64,000 bases of DNA from the NCBI RefSeq assembly GCF_039679125.1, contig NZ_CP155551.1, positions 3,596,001-3,660,000 of the forward strand, read 5' to 3'. Made by a program: the position numbers and the translations under genes. The notes under the pieces are model-generated. The model worked only from the letters and a program-made list of their open reading frames with translations. It did no database searches and was not told the DNA's origin. How positions within the stretch are numbered: position 1 is the first letter of the stretch; every line of letters begins with the position of its first letter. Of this stretch, positions 45,781-52,887 are shown piece by piece. The stretch comes from Blastococcus sp. HT6-4. Lineage in GTDB: Bacteria; Actinomycetota; Actinomycetes; Mycobacteriales; Geodermatophilaceae.

Positions 45781-45912
45781 CCGTCGCCAGGTCCCCTCGG
45801 CCCCGGACGGGCACGGACCGAGGCTGGACGCCGAGTCTAGGGGCGGGCGACCTCGGTCGGGACCCTGCTCACCGACCGCGCCCTGGGGAGATCGGCCGGA
45901 TCGGCACGAGCC

Positions 45913-45929
45913 TACGATGACCGATAGGA
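45913..45929 (+). promoter_or_regulatory. Putative BlaI-type operator before the Sco gene
   Basis: TACGA-N7-TAGGA, a 17-bp dyad matching the TACTA-N7-TAGTA pattern found near blaI with one symmetric change in each arm. It is centred about 55 bp before the ATG of the Sco1 gene. Confidence 0.5.
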
Positions 45930-45975
45930 GATCGTGGCGATGCCGAACCCGGCCGGCCGGTGCCCAGGAGGTCCC

Positions 45976-46704
45976 ATGCGAGCAGTTCCAGGCCAAGCAG
46001 CCCTCGGGTCCGCCATCCTGGTCGGCGGGTTGCTGCTGACGGGATGCGGCCAGGACGCCACCGCACCGGCCGACGCGGGCGGAGTCCGCGTCGCGACGCA
46101 GGACGACGGCTTCCACGGCACGCTGATGCAGCGGCCCCAGCCCCGTCCGGACCTGACGCTGCCGACCACCACCGGAGACCCGTTCGACCTCGGGAACCGC
46201 CCCGAGGACGAGATCACGCTGCTCTTCTTCGGCTACACCCACTGCCCGGACCTGTGCCCGACCACGATGGCCGACCTCGCGCTGGCGCGGGACGTGCTCG
46301 CCCCCGGGATCCGTGACCGGGTGCAGGTGGTGTTCGTGACCGAGGACCCGGCGCGGGACACCCCGGAGGCGCTGCGGGAGTGGCTGGACCGGTTCGACCC
46401 GGAGTTCACCGGGCTCATCGGCGGCACCGAGGCCACCGCGGCGGCGCTGCGGGAGCTGTACCTGCCCGAGAGCGCCCAGGTGGCCGACCCGTCGACAGCG
46501 ATCGTCCACCCGCACGAGGGCGGCGCGCACGCCGCGGAGGGCGACGGGCAGCACGGGAACGGGCACAGCCACGGCGACTACGGGGTCGACCACGCGGGAA
46601 CGGTCTACGCCTGGGGTCCCGGGGGCCGGGCGGTGATCTACACCGGCGGAACCACCCCGGACCAGTACGCCGAGGACCTCACCCGGCTGGCCACCGCCGG
46701 CTGA
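45976..46704 (+). CDS. Sco1/SenC family copper chaperone lipoprotein
   Basis: Exported thioredoxin-fold protein that binds copper and helps assemble the CuA site of cytochrome oxidase or handles thiols. From ATG 45976 (AGGAGG six bases upstream, ideal) it has 242 residues. It has the lipobox LLTGC (Cys24), the copper motif CPDLC (Cys90, Cys94) and the distal His206 in VDHAGTVYAW. A His-rich insertion at about 178-200 (HPHEGG, HGNGHSHG) lies before the conserved His and could add metal binding. It stands alone on the plus strand with an operator-like dyad upstream. Confidence 0.93.
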   Translation: MRAVPGQAALGSAILVGGLLLTGCGQDATAPADAGGVRVATQDDGFHGTLMQRPQPRPDLTLPTTTGDPFDLGNRPEDEITLLFFGYTHCPDLCPTTMADLALARDVLAPGIRDRVQVVFVTEDPARDTPEALREWLDRFDPEFTGLIGGTEATAAALRELYLPESAQVADPSTAIVHPHEGGAHAAEGDGQHGNGHSHGDYGVDHAGTVYAWGPGGRAVIYTGGTTPDQYAEDLTRLATAG

Positions 46705-46736
46705 GCGGGGCCACCCCTCCCTCGGGCCGGTCGCCG

Positions 46737-46982
46737 TCAGCCTCCGGACAGGTCGCGCTGCATCCGGACGTACTCGTCGCGATCGATCTCGCCGGCGGCG
46801 TATCGGCGGCGCAGCACCTCCTGCGCACCGGCGGCCTCGTCCGGCCGGGCCGTCGGGCGGCGCCTGACCAGCCGGATGGCCGCAAGGACCGCGATCACCA
46901 GCAGGGCGACGCCGACCAGGGCCCAGAACAGCATCCAGCCGCCCATCATCCCGCCGTCCATCATCCCGCCGTCGTGGCCCAT
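46737..46982 (-). CDS. Small Met-rich membrane protein with SHOCT domain
   Basis: 81 residues from ATG 46982, which has AAGGAG eight bases upstream. A Met/His/Asp/Gly-rich N-terminus (MGHDGGMMDGGMMGG) precedes one membrane segment (about 16-38) and a C-terminal SHOCT domain (LRRRYAAGEIDRDEYVRMQRDL). SHOCT is a short protein-interaction module. The Met-rich segment could bind copper(I), in keeping with the neighbouring Sco1 protein; this is inference. It is last in a minus-strand series behind tlpA, 134 bp away. Confidence 0.82.
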   Translation of the reverse strand: MGHDGGMMDGGMMGGWMLFWALVGVALLVIAVLAAIRLVRRRPTARPDEAAGAQEVLRRRYAAGEIDRDEYVRMQRDLSGG

Positions 46983-47116
46983 CAGTTGCTCCTTCGTCCG
47001 GTCGGCGGGGCACCCTCGGCTGCCCTGCCGCGCGTCCCCCACCGGCTGTCGGCGGGGCGGTCAGTCGTGGGGCGCGCTCCCCGAAGAGGTCACGCTCCGG
47101 CCGGGCCGGGGCACGC

Positions 47117-47705
47117 TCATGCACCCCCCGAGCGGAGGAGGGCGTCGATCAGGCGCTGCAGCTCCGCGGAGGTCAGCTGACCGACCACCCGGTCGACGAC
47201 GCGGCCGTCGGCGTCGAGGGCGAGGGTCACCGGCAGTCCCCGGACGCCCAGCAGGCGCAGCAGCTCGCCGTCGGCGTCGACGGCGTGCGGGTAGTCGACG
47301 CCGTGCTCGTCGAGGAACCAGCGGGCAGCGTCGGGGGCGTCCTGCACGTCCACACCCAGGAACCGGACCTGCTCGCCGTGGTGGGCGTAGGCCTCCTGCA
47401 GCAGCGGCATCTCCTCCCGGCACGGGCCGCACCAGGTCGCCCACAGGTTGACCAGGGTCGGACGGCCGGTCAGCCGGTCCAGCGCCACGTCCGGGCCCGG
47501 CCCCAGGCAGGGCAGGGTGAGCGGCGGCAGGGCGTCCGCGCCGGCCGGCGCGACGTCCTCGGGCAGCTGCTCGCAGGCCGGCGCGGGGGGGAGCCGCCTC
47601 GGCGGCCACCGGTCCGGTCCCTGCCGTGGACGCGGTCGGCTCGGTGGCCGCACAGCCGGCCAGCAGGGCGACCGTGAGGAGCCCGGCTGCCAGCCGCGCC
47701 GGCAT
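47117..47705 (-). pseudogene. TlpA/ResA-type thioredoxin lipoprotein, frameshifted in a C7 tract
   Basis: ATG 47705 (GGGAG upstream, TGATG overlap with the BNR gene) opens a lipoprotein signal peptide, GLLTVALLAGC, in one frame. The thioredoxin domain, with WATWCGPCREE and GVRGLPVTLALD, continues to 47117 in another frame. The frames meet at a run of seven C on the coding strand (47585-47591); six C would give one intact 195-residue protein, the size of the second TlpA at 50.2 kb. It is either a sequencing error, a true inactivation, or slippage-dependent expression. Role: thiol-disulfide exchange outside the membrane. Confidence 0.82.
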
Positions 47706-48655
47706 CAGGACTCCCGGTACAGCTCGGTGAAGGTCCGCCCGCCGTCGGTGGAAGCCAGGACCGCACCGTCGACGGCGACGTAGACCTCCTCCCCGTCCAC
47801 GGTCAGCGCCTCCGGAGCTCCACCTGCGCTGCCGCGCTCGGCCCAGGTCCGCCCGCCGTCGGTGCTCACGAACACCGTCCCGTCCGGAGCGACCCCGGCT
47901 GCCGTGCCACCGTCGGCGGCGATGTCCACCAGCACCAGCAGCGGGGCGCCGGCGACGGCGCTGACGTTCCTCCCGGCGTCCTCGCTGACCACCAGGCCGG
48001 CCTCCGTGGTGGCCAGGACCCGCTGCGGCTCGGTCGGATCCGCGGCCAGGTCGGCGATTCGCATCTGGCCGCGATCGGCCCACTCGACGCCGTCCTCGCT
48101 GACCATGAGCCGGCCCCCGCTGTAGCCGTAGATCATGCCGCTCGCGGCGTCCAGGGCGTGGAAGTCGGCCTCCCCGGCCAGTGACAGCGTCTCCCAGGTC
48201 TCCCCACCGTCGGTGCTCTCGAGCAGGCCCAGGTTGCCCGGGCCCTCCTGGCCGGCGCCGGGATGGCCGCTGGCCAGGTAGTGCCCGGGGCCGACGACGG
48301 TGAAGCCCATGAAGTCCTGCACCCGGTCGGCGATGCGGGTCAGCTCCCCGCCCGGCGTGATGCGCACCAGCCCGTAGTGGGTGCCGGCGTACAGGGCGTC
48401 GTCGGCCGGGTCGACGCCCAGCCCGTGCACGTGCTCGAGGGTCACGTCGTCCGGGTGGGCGCGGGTGCCGTCGTCGTGGCTGTGGGTCTCGCCGTCAGCG
48501 GCGGCCTGGTCGCCGCCGGCTGCGTCGGCGCCGCACCCGGCGAGCAGCAGCGCTCCCGACGCGGCGGCGCCGACCAGCACCCGACGTCGCCGCGGACGAC
48601 CGGCCACCCCGCGAACGGGCCGGGCGGATCGGGACGGCAGGACGGACGCTGACAT
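47705..48655 (-). CDS. BNR-repeat lipoprotein (F510_1955-type glycosylhydrolase-like)
   Basis: 316-residue exported lipoprotein: signal peptide with lipobox LLAGC (Cys41), a His-rich stretch (THSHDD and following), then a beta-propeller with Asp-box repeats (STDGGETWE, SEDGVEWAD, STDGGRTWAE, STDGGRTFTE). The family annotation glycosylhydrolase is by fold only; no catalytic residues are evident. Homologues often lie near copper-handling genes. ATG 48655 has GGGGAG five to nine bases upstream. First gene of a unit with the frameshifted tlpA, preceded by an operator-like dyad. Confidence 0.82.
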   Translation of the reverse strand: MSASVLPSRSARPVRGVAGRPRRRRVLVGAAASGALLLAGCGADAAGGDQAAADGETHSHDDGTRAHPDDVTLEHVHGLGVDPADDALYAGTHYGLVRITPGGELTRIADRVQDFMGFTVVGPGHYLASGHPGAGQEGPGNLGLLESTDGGETWETLSLAGEADFHALDAASGMIYGYSGGRLMVSEDGVEWADRGQMRIADLAADPTEPQRVLATTEAGLVVSEDAGRNVSAVAGAPLLVLVDIAADGGTAAGVAPDGTVFVSTDGGRTWAERGSAGGAPEALTVDGEEVYVAVDGAVLASTDGGRTFTELYRES

Positions 48656-48682
48656 GAGCTCCCCACAGAGACCGGACGGACG

Positions 48683-48699
48683 TACTACGACGAATAGTA
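48683..48699 (-). promoter_or_regulatory. Putative BlaI-type operator before the BNR gene
   Basis: TACTA-CGACGAA-TAGTA, a perfect-arm 17-bp dyad centred 36 bp before the BNR lipoprotein start. It is the best match of the five sites. Confidence 0.7.
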
Positions 48700-48721
48700 G
48701 ACCGTCCGGCGGAGTCGGAGC

Positions 48722-49681
48722 TCAGCTCCAGTCGGCTCCGGGGAGGACGCACAGCCCGCTGGAGACCGCGGACACCAGCGGCCAGGCGGCCAGTGCCACC
48801 GGCCCGGCCACCACCAGCACCGCCGCCGCCGACGCGGCGATCCGGTGCACGGGCCTCAGAGGGGCGACCGGCCGGAGCAGCCGTGTCACCCGGTGCACGC
48901 CGGCTCCCTGCGCGGCGGCCAGCGCCGGGGCGGGGGCGCGCATCCCGGCGAGGGTGACCAGCGCGGAGGCGACCTCGACGCGGCTCACCCGCCGGGCGGC
49001 GGCGTCGTCGGCCAGCAGCTCGACGAGCCGCTCGGTCTCCACCCGGCCCCGGGAGAAGAGGGGCACCCGGGGGAAGGCCCGGTCCAGGACCCGGGCGGCG
49101 CCGACGGCCAGGTGATGACGGCCGCGCAGATGGGCCCGCTCGTGGGCCAGCACGGCGGCGAGCTCCTGGACGGAGAGCGTGCGGAGGGCCGCGGTGGTCA
49201 CCACGACGGATCGGCGCCGCCCCGGCAGGCAGAAGGCGGCGGCGTGGTCGGAGTCCAGCACCACCGCCCCCAGCGACCGTTCGCGGCGGGCACCGACCAG
49301 GAGGCTCGCCCGCAGTCGGCGCCGCTCCCGCTGGTCGCGCAGCCGGCTGCGGGCGGCGACCCAGCCCAGCCGCAGGGACACCCCGCCCGACAGCAGGACG
49401 CCGGCGAGCACGGCGGCCAGCTGCCCGGGCGACCGGTAGACGGCGGCGATGGTCGCCGCGCAGGCGTCGAGGACCGATGCCAGGCCGTCGGCGACCGCAC
49501 CGGCCGGCACCAGCAGCGCCAGGCCGGCGAGCACCACGGACACGAGCGCACCGGCCGACGCCGCCTGCCAGGCGGCGACCGCCAGCCGCGGGGACCGGTC
49601 GGCCCAGCCGGCACCGAGCGCCCGCGGAGCCAGCGCCACCAGCGTCGCGGCGAACCCCAGCAGCGCGACGGTGGTGGTCAC
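48722..49681 (-). CDS. M56-family membrane metalloprotease (BlaR/MecR-like, no sensor domain)
   Basis: 319 residues from GTG 49681. Several membrane segments flank a cytoplasmic zinc-protease domain with HERAH (in AAVLAHERAHLRG) and a downstream ERLVELLADDAAAR segment holding the third ligand. The protein ends soon after a last membrane segment. In BlaR1 and MecR1 an extracellular penicillin-binding sensor follows there; it is absent here. The GTG overlaps the blaI stop (GTGA), so repressor and protease are coupled. The protease should trigger removal of the BlaI-type repressor in response to an unknown signal. Confidence 0.9.
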   Translation of the reverse strand: MTTTVALLGFAATLVALAPRALGAGWADRSPRLAVAAWQAASAGALVSVVLAGLALLVPAGAVADGLASVLDACAATIAAVYRSPGQLAAVLAGVLLSGGVSLRLGWVAARSRLRDQRERRRLRASLLVGARRERSLGAVVLDSDHAAAFCLPGRRRSVVVTTAALRTLSVQELAAVLAHERAHLRGRHHLAVGAARVLDRAFPRVPLFSRGRVETERLVELLADDAAARRVSRVEVASALVTLAGMRAPAPALAAAQGAGVHRVTRLLRPVAPLRPVHRIAASAAAVLVVAGPVALAAWPLVSAVSSGLCVLPGADWS

Positions 49682-50046
49682 GACGTCTGCGCCTGCCGGG
49701 CCGCCTCCACCGCGGTCCGCAGGCTGGCCACCGCGTCGGCGTCGAGGTCGGCGACGAAGTGCATGAGCACCTCGTCGCGATCCCCGGCCGCGCTCAGCAC
49801 GTCCTGCAGCATCGCCGCGGAGTGCTCCGCGCGGGTCCGGGTGGGGCGGTACCGCCAGGCCCGGCCTTCCATCTCCCGGCTGAGGGCACCCTTGCGGTGC
49901 AGGTTGTCCATCACCGTCATCACGGTGGTGTAGGCGAGTACGCGGGACGCGGTCAGCTCGGCGAGCACCTCGCGGACGGTCGCCGCCGCCCCGCGGCGCC
50001 ACAGCACGTCCATCACGACGGCTTCCAGCTCACCGAACGGGCGCAC
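49678..50046 (-). CDS. blaI: BlaI/MecI/CopY-type transcriptional repressor
   Basis: 122-residue winged-helix repressor. It has the family pattern GELEAVVMDVLWRRGAATVREV-like helix one, the recognition part AYTTVMTVMDNLHRKG, the wing GRAWRYRPTR, and a C-terminal dimerisation helix region (LHFVADL-like, MHFVADLDADAV). Members include antibiotic-responsive BlaI/MecI and copper-responsive CopY; CopY's CxCx4CxC zinc/copper motif is missing here. GTG 50046 is used. It is coupled to the M56 gene and divergent from tlpA-ccdA. Three dyads in the divergent region are probable autoregulatory sites. Confidence 0.93.
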   Translation of the reverse strand: MRPFGELEAVVMDVLWRRGAAATVREVLAELTASRVLAYTTVMTVMDNLHRKGALSREMEGRAWRYRPTRTRAEHSAAMLQDVLSAAGDRDEVLMHFVADLDADAVASLRTAVEAARQAQTS

Positions 50047-50077
50047 CCGCCACCTCCTCGTCCCCTCCGTGCCACAG

Positions 50078-50094
50078 TACTAGCGGCGGTAGTG
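50078..50094. promoter_or_regulatory. Putative BlaI-type operator O1
   Basis: TACTA-GCGGCGG-TAGTG, 17-bp dyad with one arm mismatch, centred about 40 bp before blaI. Confidence 0.6.
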
Positions 50095-50112
50095 GAGGAC
50101 GCCACGACGGAG

Positions 50113-50129
50113 CACTACACCCGATAGTA
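50113..50129. promoter_or_regulatory. Putative BlaI-type operator O2
   Basis: CACTA-CACCCGA-TAGTA, 17-bp dyad with one mismatch, mid-way in the blaI/tlpA divergent region. It shares ATAGTAGACC on its right side with the site before the BNR gene. Confidence 0.65.
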
Positions 50130-50138
50130 GACCACCAC

Positions 50139-50155
50139 TCCTACCTGTCATAGTA
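50139..50155. promoter_or_regulatory. Putative BlaI-type operator O3
   Basis: TCCTA-CCTGTCA-TAGTA, 17-bp dyad with one mismatch, 73 bp before the tlpA start. A 23-codon ORF (50161-50232), whose TGA overlaps the tlpA ATG, begins just after it. Confidence 0.55.
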
Positions 50156-50228
50156 GGGCGGTGGCGAGGAAGCAGCTCAGTCGTACAGCCGGCCGCCGCC
50201 GTCCGGGCCGCACCGCGGCGGTACGTCG

Positions 50229-50822
50229 ATGAGCCGGCCGTTCAGCCGCCGGACCCTGCTGCTCGCCGCCGGCGCAGCCGCCGGGGCGCTGGCCGGCTGC
50301 TCCACCGGCGGGAACGAGGCCGCCGGCGGCCGCCTGGAGTACGAGTTCACGGAACCCACGCCGACGGCGACGGTGCTCGCCGAGGACCAGCGGGCACCGG
50401 CGCCGGCCTTCTCCGGCGAGCTGCTCGACGGCACTCCGTTCGACTCCTCCTCCCTGGCCGGGGACGTCGCCGTGATCAACTTCTGGGGGTCCTGGTGCGT
50501 GCCGTGCCGGGTGGAGACCCCGGAGTTCCAGGCCGTGCACGGCGACGTCGCCGACCGCGGGGTGCAGTTCCTCGGCATCGACGTCAAGGATCAGCGCCAA
50601 CTCGCCGTCGCCTTCGCCGAGCAGCTCGGGGCGGCGTACCCGTCGGTGTTCGATCCCCGCGGTGAGGTCGCGATGGCCTTCCGCGGATTCCCGGCCAACG
50701 TGGTCCCCTCCACCATCCTGCTCGACCGCGACGGCAGGGTCGCCGCCGTCCACACCGGTCAGGTCCACGGGGAGGACCTGCGCACCGCCGTCGAGCTGCT
50801 GCTGGCCGAGGACCGGGCGTGA
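50229..50822 (+). CDS. TlpA/ResA-like thioredoxin lipoprotein
   Basis: 197-residue exported thiol oxidoreductase. An Arg-rich twin-arginine-like start ([14 protein letters not shown]) leads to the lipobox LAGC (Cys24). The thioredoxin domain has WGSWCVPC (Cys90, Cys93), GIDVKD and the cis-Pro loop [10 protein letters not shown]. It should reduce disulfides outside the membrane using electrons from the CcdA protein encoded next. ATG 50229 lacks a clear ribosome binding site but overlaps the stop of a short upstream ORF, which might couple its translation. It is divergent from blaI and under three operator-like dyads. Confidence 0.92.
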
Positions 50823-51694
50823 GCGAGCTCGCGGCGACCTTCGCCGGCATCGTCACCGACGGCTCGCTGCTGCTGGCCGTCGCCGTGGCCGCGCTGGTCG
50901 GGCTGATCAGCTTCGCCTCGCCCTGCTGCCTGCCGCTGATCCCCGGCTACGTCAGCTACGTCGCCGGGCTCGCCGGCTCGCAGGTCACCGCCGGTGCGGC
51001 CCGGGTTCCGCAGGCTGCCGGTGGCGGCCCCGCCGGTACGACGTCGGCCGGTTGCCCCGCCGAGGCCGGCACCGCTCCCTCACCGCCGGCGGCGTCGGCA
51101 ACTGCCGGTCGCGGCCGGGTGCTGGCCGGGTCCCTGCTGTTCATCGCCGGGTTCAGCGCGGTCTTCGTCTCCTTCGGCGCGCTCTTCGGCGGCCTGGGCC
51201 GGCTGCTGCTGGAGTGGTCCCCGGTGCTCACCCGGGTCGCCGGCGTCGTCGTGATCGCGATGGGGCTGTCGTTCCTCGGCGCGATCCCGTGGCTGATGCG
51301 CGAACGCCGCATCCACCACCGGCCCCCGGCCGGCCTGGCCGGCGCCCCCGTCCTCGGCGTCGTGTTCGGTCTCGGCTGGACGCCCTGCCTGGGCCCGACG
51401 CTGGCCGCGGTGAACACCCTGGCCTACACCCAGGCCTCGGCCGGCCGCGGCGCCGTCCTCGCCCTCGCCTACTGCCTCGGGCTCGGGGTCCCGTTCGTCC
51501 TCGTGGCCCTCGGCGCCCGGCGCGCCCTGGCCTTCTCCGCACTGGCCCGCCGGCACGCTCCCACGGTCATGCGGATCGGCGGGGGCCTGATGATCGCCCT
51601 GGGGATCCTGCTGCTGACCGGCTGGTGGGACGCACTGATGATCTGGCTGCGGGCCTGGCTGGGCGCCACCGGACTGGGCACGTCGATCCTGTAG
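50819..51694 (+). CDS. ccdA: CcdA/DsbD-like thiol transporter
   Basis: 291-residue inner-membrane protein passing electrons from cytosolic thioredoxin to exported TlpA proteins. It has six membrane segments and the paired redox cysteines SFASPCCLP (Cys36/37) and [10 protein letters not shown] (Cys190). A hydrophilic insert of about 45 residues (54-98) with an extra Cys79 lies between segments one and two. GTG 50819 overlaps the tlpA stop (GTGA). In cytochrome c maturation ccdA is normally followed by resB and resC; neither is here, since an acyl-CoA dehydrogenase gene faces it. Confidence 0.92.
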
Positions 51695-51732
51695 CCGCCG
51701 CCGCACGAAGGGTGGAGACGCGGGTCGACGGA

Positions 51733-52887
51733 CTACTTCAGCAGGCTGCGGGCGATCACCATGCGCTGGACCTGGTTGGTGCCCTCGTAGATCTGGGTGA
51801 TCTTGGCGTCGCGCATCATCCGCTCGACCGGGAAGTCCTGCGTGTAGCCCGCCCCGCCGAACAGCTGGACGGCGTCGGTGGTCACCTGCATCGCCACGTC
51901 GGAGGCGAAGGCCTTGGCCGAGGCCGACACGCGGGTGACGTCGGGGCGGCCCTGCTCGCCGGCGGCCGCGGCCACGTAGACGAGGTGGCGGGCCGCCTCG
52001 ATCTTCATGTCCATGTCGGCGAGCATGAACTGCACGCCCTGGAACGAACCGATCGACGTCCCGAACTGCGTGCGTTCCTTGACGTAGGCCACGGCGGCGT
52101 CGAGCGCACCCTGGGCGATGCCGACGGCCTGGGCTCCGATGGTCGGGCGGGTGAAGTCCAGGGTGCGCAGCGCCGTCTTGAAGCCCGTACCGGGCGCACC
52201 GATGATCCGGTCGGCCGGGATGGTGCAGTCGGTGAGGTACAGCTCGCAGGTCGGCGAGCCCTTGATGCCCATCTTCCGTTCCTTCGGGCCGACGGCGAAG
52301 CCCGGGTCGTCGCGGTGGACGGCGAACGCGGAGATGCCGTTGGCACCCTTCTCCGGGTCGGTGACGGCCATGACCGTGTACCACTCGGACACACCGGAGT
52401 TGGTGATCCAGGCCTTGGTGCCGTTGAGCACCCAGGTCTCGCCCTCGAGGCGGGCGCGGGTCTTCATCGCGGCGGCGTCGGAGCCGGCCTCGCGCTCGGA
52501 CAGCCCGTAGCTGATCATCGCCTCACCGGAGGCGATCGACGGCAGCACCGCGCGCTTCACGCCCTCGGACCCGGACAGGATGATCGGCATCGAGCCGAGC
52601 TTGTTGACCGCCGGGATGAGCGAGGCGCTCGCATCGACCCGCGCGACCTCCTCGATGACGATGCAGGTGGCGATGGCGTCCGCGCCCTCGCCCCCGTACT
52701 CCTCGGGGATGTGCGTGGCGTGGAAGCCGGCCGCGGTGAGGGCCTTCTGGGCCTCGATCGGGTAGCGCGAGTCGGCGTCCACCTCGGCGGCGTAGGGGGC
52801 GATCTCCCGCTCGGCGATGTCGCGCACCGCCGCCCGGATCGCCTCGTGCTCCTCGGTCAAGGCGTACAGCCCGCTGTTCGTACCCAC
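51733..52887 (-). CDS. Acyl-CoA dehydrogenase
   Basis: FAD enzyme introducing the trans-2 double bond in acyl-CoA, passing electrons to ETF. The 384 residues fit the family: [47 protein letters not shown] and near the C-terminus [12 protein letters not shown] with the catalytic Glu. It most resembles short/branched-chain types; chain-length choice cannot be read. GTG 52887 has TACGAT seven bases upstream. It precedes nothing in an obvious pathway operon; purE lies 23 bp upstream on the same strand. Confidence 0.93.

Follow-up and report, generated by a model that had tools for sequence, protein, structure and literature searches.

A TACTA-N7-TAGTA dyad appears to place copper, thiol-redox and cytochrome-assembly genes under a BlaI repressor and its membrane protease in Blastococcus and other actinobacteria

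The closest precedents for the system described here are the cyanobacterial PetR/PetP pair and the mycobacterial BlaI. Our subject is a gene cluster in a 64,000-nt stretch of the Blastococcus sp. HT6-4 genome (contig NZ_CP155551.1, positions 3,596,001 to 3,660,000; hereafter the window), in which a BlaI-family repressor gene and a BlaR1-like membrane protease gene lie beside genes for Sco1, TlpA and CcdA, with five 17-bp inverted repeats of the form TACTA-N7-TAGTA (dyads) among them. PetR/PetP of Synechocystis likewise joins a BlaI-like regulator and a BlaR-like membrane protease to copper-linked electron-transfer targets, and its copper-responsive regulon is reported to comprise four proteins, namely plastocyanin, cytochrome c6 and two unknown ones (PMC7896320; PMC10141476). 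Unlike these, the putative targets here are Sco1, TlpA/CcdA, DsbA-VKOR and genes for cytochrome c maturation and copper resistance. In M. tuberculosis (BlaI/BlaR, Rv1846c/Rv1845c), BlaR resembles the protease here in lacking a sensor domain, and BlaI is said to bind the cytochrome bd and ATP synthase promoters (PMC5473688, citing Sala 2009); the available portion of that source names blaC, sigC, ATP synthase and cytochrome bd as targets, and not a thiol/copper set.

More distant members of the family share single features with the cluster. S. aureus BlaR1-BlaI also pairs a repressor with an HExxH zinc metalloprotease (PMC9834060), but BlaR1 carries a C-terminal beta-lactam-sensing domain that the protease here lacks. 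CopY/CopR of Bacillota belong to the same family, and their paired operators are most commonly 26 bases apart, as in the window (PMC7253601); CopY senses copper through a C-terminal CxC and has the operator TACAnnTGTA, whereas the window BlaI is free of cysteine and its putative operator is a 17-bp dyad of 6-5-6 layout. That layout recurs in BlaI_0696 of Clostridium thermocellum, for which DNA affinity purification sequencing (DAP-seq) gave inverted GTCTAT copies five nucleotides apart, and whose operon holds BlaR1 genes, as here a protease gene lies beside blaI; BlaI_0696 differs in its three-operon regulon, which the authors read as an antibiotic response (PMC8457756). Among the open-access matches listed, with subscription papers mostly outside the scope of the search, none described a BlaI that controls genes for thiols, copper and cytochrome c assembly as one regulon, in keeping with an earlier note on this DNA, in which the combination is not known as a described regulon. 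The BlaI-M56 pairs found here carry no beta-lactam sensor and are not known to have a signal, a question that the motif, with its many conserved targets, makes accessible to ordinary experiments.

The earlier note, made from the window sequence, had placed the dyads before sco1, a BNR lipoprotein-tlpA unit, blaI with its M56 protease and tlpA-ccdA, outside genes and within about 75 bp of start codons. All five were found in the sequence (Table 1), and the genes behind them are backed by Pfam or NCBIfam. The common pattern holds in spacing, N7 being identical in 5/5, and less uniformly in sequence: only dyad 48683 is free of mismatches, with a single mismatch in three others and two in the sco1 dyad. 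All lie clear of called genes, and the distances to starts range from 27 to 73 bp: 46 bp to the sco1 ATG (45976), 27 bp to the BNR lipoprotein ATG (48655; the gene caller preferred a start at 48580) and 73 bp to the tlpA2 start. Three dyads stand 31, 66 and 92 bp before blaI, which would give it an inverted-repeat operator in its own promoter, judged by sequence only. At up to two mismatches the window contains exactly these five dyads, against a mean of 0.25 (maximum 2) in shuffled windows; in its non-coding part (5101 bases) the expectation from mononucleotide shuffles is 0.084 (maximum 2). A chance origin is excluded. Dyads 50113 and 50139 are spaced 26 bp apart, as are dyads in some relatives, and they coincide with a predicted promoter directed toward blaI, dyad 50113 holding the TACTAT of the −10 box and dyad 50139 the −35 box. 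This promoter is the sole promoter-like match within 45800-51800 (shuffles, mean 0.0).

The source genome is a single contig of 4,297,415 bases. At up to one mismatch it holds only 9 places, four of them in the cluster, four inside genes and one without a called gene over it, so that the regulon in this species looks local, comprising four transcription units. At up to two mismatches there are 78 places; the sco1 site is therefore not distinctive alone, and its support comes from its position in relatives. A sco1 dyad lies at a similar place in six of them, perfect in G007 and G005, with one mismatch in G021 and with two in G016, G013 and G008. G007, G005 and G021, which retain the cluster, have dyads, several of them perfect, at the same promoters as the window (sco1, BNR-tlpA, blaI and tlpA2-ccdA), and the BNR dyad is also found in G013. 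The blaI dyad of these three lies 71–92 bp from the called start, versus 31 bp in the window. The genes flanking the cluster in the window (methyltransferase, acyl-CoA dehydrogenase, purE) had no match in 20 fetched relative stretches, so the cluster lies in different surroundings in other species. One set of 20 stretches in which sites inside and between genes were compared was partly picked for perfect dyads (12/20 hold one), and some stretches overlap, a bias that touches the number of sites and not their placement relative to genes.

The motif accompanies the repressor through the genus Blastococcus. Perfect dyads, 33 in total over 23 genomes, occurred in 13/17 genomes with a BlaI of the window group (best E at most 9.1e-28) and in 0/6 without one (best BlaI match weaker than 1e-16; Fisher p = 0.002), and counts at up to one mismatch were 4–29 versus 1–5 (Mann-Whitney p = 2.5e-4), both p-values being optimistic through shared ancestry. 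Counted by hand, 31 of the 33 perfect dyads share a contig with a BlaI gene no more than about 34 kb away; the remaining two are on contigs without a listed BlaI match.

Beyond the genus, we analysed 80 loci picked by BlaI protein only (the best 80 of 573, some of them again Blastococcus), with gene calls from a caller that we trained on the window sequence. At up to one mismatch they contained 203 sites, 197 intergenic and 6 coding, in sequence of which 23% is non-coding; not all sites are independent, as several loci (e.g. L105-L110, L113 and L162) match, by length, contigs of other stretches and L128/L130 overlap. An unbiased search for inverted 5-mer pairs (spacings 2 to 14; the intergenic parts of 71 loci plus 15 bases into genes) ranked TACTA-N7-TAGTA first, with 100 observed and 0.13 expected, and the averaged site was C-TACTAT-N5-ATAGTA-G. 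A site at up to one mismatch was present in 62/80 loci. Among 79 BlaI promoters, 29 had such a site and 15 more had one with two mismatches, against 64 and 95 of 1600 random windows at up to one and up to two mismatches. That sites are far rarer inside genes than between them, by our gene calls and by NCBI gene tables alike, and that dyads are kept in relatives retaining the cluster, speaks for the proposal of the earlier note that one repressor may control an extracytoplasmic thiol/copper set. BlaI-M56 appears to control copper, thiol-redox and cytochrome-assembly genes through one motif in many actinobacteria.

The gene set noticed in the window was correct, and it is larger in other species. 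Targets across genera include BlaI-M56 itself, Sco1, TlpA, CcdA, DsbA-VKOR, ResB-CcsB, CtaG, CtaD, CopC and Lgt. We tallied operons of the named loci by family, with labels assigned by BLAST to our own representatives and hence loose; the names of the representatives scanned are backed by Pfam. An upstream site was present in 17/29 TlpA/ResA, 12/22 CcdA, 9/13 ResB, 9/22 CtaG, 8/19 DsbA, 7/14 VKOR, 7/13 BNR, 5/8 Lgt, 4/6 CtaD, 4/7 Sco1 and 3/11 Lnt operons; the share was low for multicopper oxidase (2/9). Some of the unassigned operons with a site are targets too (CopC). A copper theme runs through the genes behind the dyads, in the form of Sco1, CopC, CtaG, CtaD, multicopper oxidase, cupredoxin and small Met/Cys-rich proteins.

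Table 1. Genes, putative operator dyads and predicted promoter of the cluster, in window coordinates. Dyad halves are scored left/right as matches out of 5 to TACTA.
Feature	Position	Strand	Sequence	Evidence or score
sco1, SCO1/SenC copper chaperone lipoprotein	45976..46704	+		PF02630, E 1.5e-25
Small membrane protein, Met/His-rich N-terminus	46737..46982	-		weak SHOCT, PF09851 below cut-off
tlpA1, TlpA/ResA-like thiol oxidoreductase	47117..47708	-		PF08534/PF00578
BNR lipoprotein, F510_1955 family glycosylhydrolase	47705..48655	-		NF045728, E 1.1e-71, above cut-off
M56/BlaR1-like membrane metalloprotease without sensor domain	48722..49684	-		PF01435; HExxH 181-185
blaI, BlaI-family winged-helix repressor	49678..50046	-		PF03965, E 3e-26
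tlpA2, TlpA/ResA-like thiol oxidoreductase	50229..50822	+		PF00578, E 2.6e-21
ccdA, DsbD/CcdA-type membrane electron carrier	50819..51694	+		PF02683, E 1.1e-8
Putative operator dyad before sco1	45913..45929		TACGATGACCGATAGGA	4/4, two mismatches
Putative operator dyad before BNR-tlpA1	48683..48699		TACTACGACGAATAGTA	5/5, perfect
Putative operator dyad nearest blaI	50078..50094		TACTAGCGGCGGTAGTG	5/4, one mismatch
Putative operator dyad, blaI/tlpA2 divergent region	50113..50129		CACTACACCCGATAGTA	4/5, one mismatch
Putative operator dyad, blaI/tlpA2 divergent region	50139..50155		TCCTACCTGTCATAGTA	4/5, one mismatch
Predicted promoter toward blaI	50124..50151	-	ATGACA-16-TACTAT	boxes inside dyads 50139 and 50113

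The window BlaI scored 92.5 bits against PF03965 (Penicillinase_R; cut-off 22.6), and its PDB matches were 2g9w (the best, which we take to be the M. tuberculosis BlaI), 1p6r (penicillinase repressor), 2k4b and MecI 1okr. It contains no cysteine, as is the case for 93/109 collected BlaI-like genes, it lacks the C-terminal CxC, and its score with the CopY_TcrY model (38.7 bits) falls below the cut-off of 121.95. A CopY-type metal-binding repressor was ruled out by the absence of any cysteine. Of the two ways of release that the earlier note had named for BlaI/MecI/CopY repressors, by protease or by metal, the binding of metal by the repressor itself thus falls away, and any metal signal would have to pass through the protease or another route.

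A protease gene follows 88/109 BlaI-like genes, and in the window the two genes overlap. These 88 reduce to 77 distinct sequences, 74 of them with at least 270 residues, and only the 74 were counted; H181, E182, H185 and E222 (HExxH and the downstream glutamate) are present in all 74. At three plasmid BlaI genes, the neighbouring protein is annotated by NCBI as an M56 family metallopeptidase; the window protease scored below the cut-off with the NCBIfam HtpX models. In its AlphaFold2 model (predicted local distance difference test, pLDDT, 90.3), long helices precede and follow the protease domain, and the protein is predicted to span the membrane. The chain ends at residue 320, just past helix 278-308, and in the model has no C-terminal penicillin-binding sensor domain such as the beta-lactam sensor of BlaR1, which corrects the earlier reading. 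Foldseek matched BlaR1 chains 8exq, 8exp, 8exr and 8ext with probabilities of 0.77–0.96 and weak E values (0.16–1.3). By analogy with BlaR1, found by cryo-electron microscopy to be N-out and C-out (PMC9834060), Cys75 and Cys312 are predicted to lie outside the membrane, and 61/74 distinct protease sequences have a cysteine in both outside regions. As a mark of the regulon, the cysteine pair was rejected, being equally common where no dyad was seen.

We think it likely that the dyads are BlaI operators and that the M56-like protease releases BlaI, most plausibly under copper/thiol stress. A BlaI dimer would occupy each dyad (half-site TACTAT, 6-5-6 layout) and repress four units, sco1, BNR-tlpA1, blaI-M56 and tlpA2-ccdA. 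The M56/BlaR1-like protease, with its intact HExxH zinc site, would inactivate BlaI upon a signal outside the cytoplasm, which may be read by the two conserved cysteines, situated where BlaR1 has its extracellular loop and sensor domain. Copper, or thiol-disulfide stress caused by copper, would be the likeliest signal, and our inference is that the two cysteines respond to copper or to the state of thiols. The derepressed genes would then supply exported thiols and cytochrome/oxidase assembly with copper and electrons. This suggests a copper- or redox-sensing role for the BlaI-M56 family; sensing of copper or thiols, for which cyanobacterial PetRP is on record, may be more widespread in it.

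Several observations weigh against this interpretation. At the cluster, the sco1 site has two mismatches in the source genome, and tlpA1 has a disrupted reading frame, the break falling near 47.59 kb, after the part for the lipoprotein signal and before that for the thioredoxin domain. No dyad within two mismatches was found in 35/79 BlaI promoters, and 18/80 loci lack a site at up to one mismatch, 8 of the 11 mycobacterial loci among them; BlaI genes without the motif thus exist, and other operators may be in use. Cu-ATPase operons have a dyad in 4/35 cases, no more commonly than unassigned operons (51/535), and the shares are low for DUF305 (3/18), CsoR (2/12) and CcmA (1/7). Dyads also precede sortase, NlpC/M23 peptidase and STAS genes, which have no obvious copper role. 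The protease, labelled M56 in the earlier note, matches the Pfam model PF01435 (M48) and not that of M56, and its best fold matches, M48 peptidases together with BlaR1, do not reach E 0.001. The cysteine pair is present in 48/57 proteases from stretches with dyads versus 13/17 from dyad-less ones, and Cys75 and Cys312 lie in less certain parts of the model (pLDDT 50–74 per block). The plasmid BlaI promoters described below add a further point of this kind.

The alternative that survives best keeps BlaI-M56 control and changes the signal, which would be envelope thiol/disulfide or respiratory redox stress, with copper as one cause or none. We regard this as possible, if on the unlikely side. 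Thiol-disulfide enzymes (TlpA/ResA, CcdA, DsbA and VKOR) are among the commonest targets, ResB belongs to a family of cytochrome c assembly, and the conserved protease cysteines could form a disulfide; however, several targets are copper proteins, including Sco1, CopC, multicopper oxidase, cupredoxin and Met-rich peptides. Copper- or thiol-stress control by BlaI-M56, the reading we prefer, can also be given a more specific form, which we offer as rather doubtful speculation. Here the sensor would be Cys75, in a loop equivalent to the extracellular loop EL1 of BlaR1, together with Cys312, in the tail that replaces the sensor domain, and Cu(I) binding or disulfide formation would gate BlaI cleavage. 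One such unit would control copper, disulfide and cytochrome c assembly genes on actinobacterial chromosomes and plasmids, and a second pair in Blastococcus would guard the copper-free cytochrome bd, balancing copper-dependent and copper-free respiration.

It is very improbable that the dyads bind some other regulator travelling with the cluster, such as one of CsoR or ArsR type. CsoR-type genes do occur in some islands, with dyads before them, but the dyads track BlaI and not the target or ArsR genes, and their layout equals that of a BlaI-family motif from another phylum. Plasmids bear on the same point. Three Rhodococcus plasmid stretches with BlaI-M56, one of them from a plasmid typed as conjugative, contain 12 sites at up to one mismatch; set against NCBI gene tables, which are incomplete, 11/12 fall in no listed gene and the twelfth is at the 3' end of lnt. 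The genes that follow these sites are two ctaD genes, tlpA genes, DUF3105 and dsbA/copC genes, together with one for a rhodanese and one for a GNAT protein. The three BlaI promoters themselves have no site at up to one mismatch (0/3), which is the further point against our reading; one of them holds two sites with two mismatches. Three stretches from Kineococcus, Microbacterium and Corynebacterium plasmids (L213, from pKRAD01; L214; and L215, from pCE3) carry much of the same copper-thiol-cytochrome gene set together with ArsR-type genes, and they yielded no BlaI by tblastn and no dyad at up to one mismatch, as if the regulators had been exchanged. The Kineococcus radiotolerans plasmid pKRAD01 had been considered as support because a plasmid-encoded DsbA of that strain, which may be the one in this stretch, is reported to be copper-responsive (PMC2928746). 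Target genes are present in its 40-kb stretch, but tblastn located neither BlaI nor M56 there and dyads at up to one mismatch are absent, so that it serves as a negative control.

A classical beta-lactam-inducible BlaI/BlaR1 pair is very improbable. Family membership and the regular company of repressor and protease genes fit it, but the protease stops after its last membrane helix without a sensor domain, and Pfam scans of the cluster and of a set of target representatives gave no beta-lactamase or mecA. Barely credible is the view that no regulator is involved and that the dyads serve as promoter elements or as structural features of the DNA. The resemblance of TACTAT to a −10 box and the one dyad pair coinciding with a predicted promoter speak for it, but it has no need of dyad symmetry at fixed N7 spacing, and perfect dyads are absent from the six genus genomes without the window BlaI group.

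The source genome contains one further BlaI gene with its own protease gene (G000:C1:2810955-2811377; L102 6973-9996). It is divergent from cydA (PF01654), with two dyads of another type, TTCTAC-N5-GTAGAA, in between. That dyad occurs in 26/40 genomes searched, and in 21/23 of the genus; of the 26 loci, one per genome, 25 have a BlaI of this cydA-linked type and 23 a CydA gene. Because it is present in all six genus genomes without the window BlaI group, the two BlaI-M56 pairs seem to have separate operators. A link of BlaI to cytochrome bd has already been reported for M. tuberculosis (PMC5473688), but unlike there, Blastococcus has a distinct paralogue, with a dyad that differs from the window type, as the BlaI linked to cytochrome bd. 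The protease of this second pair has no loop cysteine in the source genome, and 2g9w scored 66.6 bits against the window BlaI versus 45.8 for the second BlaI, for which a shorter gene call was used. Beyond these two dyad types, the BlaI promoters of L124, L145 and L169, which lack a TACTA dyad, show by eye other palindromes with CTAC/GTAG, perhaps operators of other BlaI lineages.

Within the window cluster, a run of seven G lies close to the break in the tlpA1 frame, which is intact in relatives (e.g. L050 11983-12576). The small membrane protein gene between sco1 and tlpA1 has no dyad of its own in the source genome. Its product ranks second of 57 window genes in Met+His+Cys content; the M56-like protein ranks 38 and tlpA2 34, so composition is a mixed sign of copper handling.

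The dyads also point to small Met/Cys-rich proteins that Pfam does not name, and to a plasmid-mobile copper-thiol gene set. One small membrane protein behind a dyad holds LACPVGMGxMMWxM, and small membrane proteins with the conserved motif CPVGMGxMMWxM are encoded at L048 8618-8830, L049 3788-3997 and L050 9144-9356 and in L111, L129, L132 and others. Operons for CPVGMGxMMWxM proteins have an upstream dyad in 6/10 cases; the one representative scanned had no Pfam match, gene calling gave none of this kind in the blaI-tlpA2 interval of the window, and that these proteins bind copper is a guess. Short Met/His-rich proteins, several with MHEQMM-like repeats, are encoded directly behind dyads in L122, L125, L151 and L164 and at L049 8847-9098.

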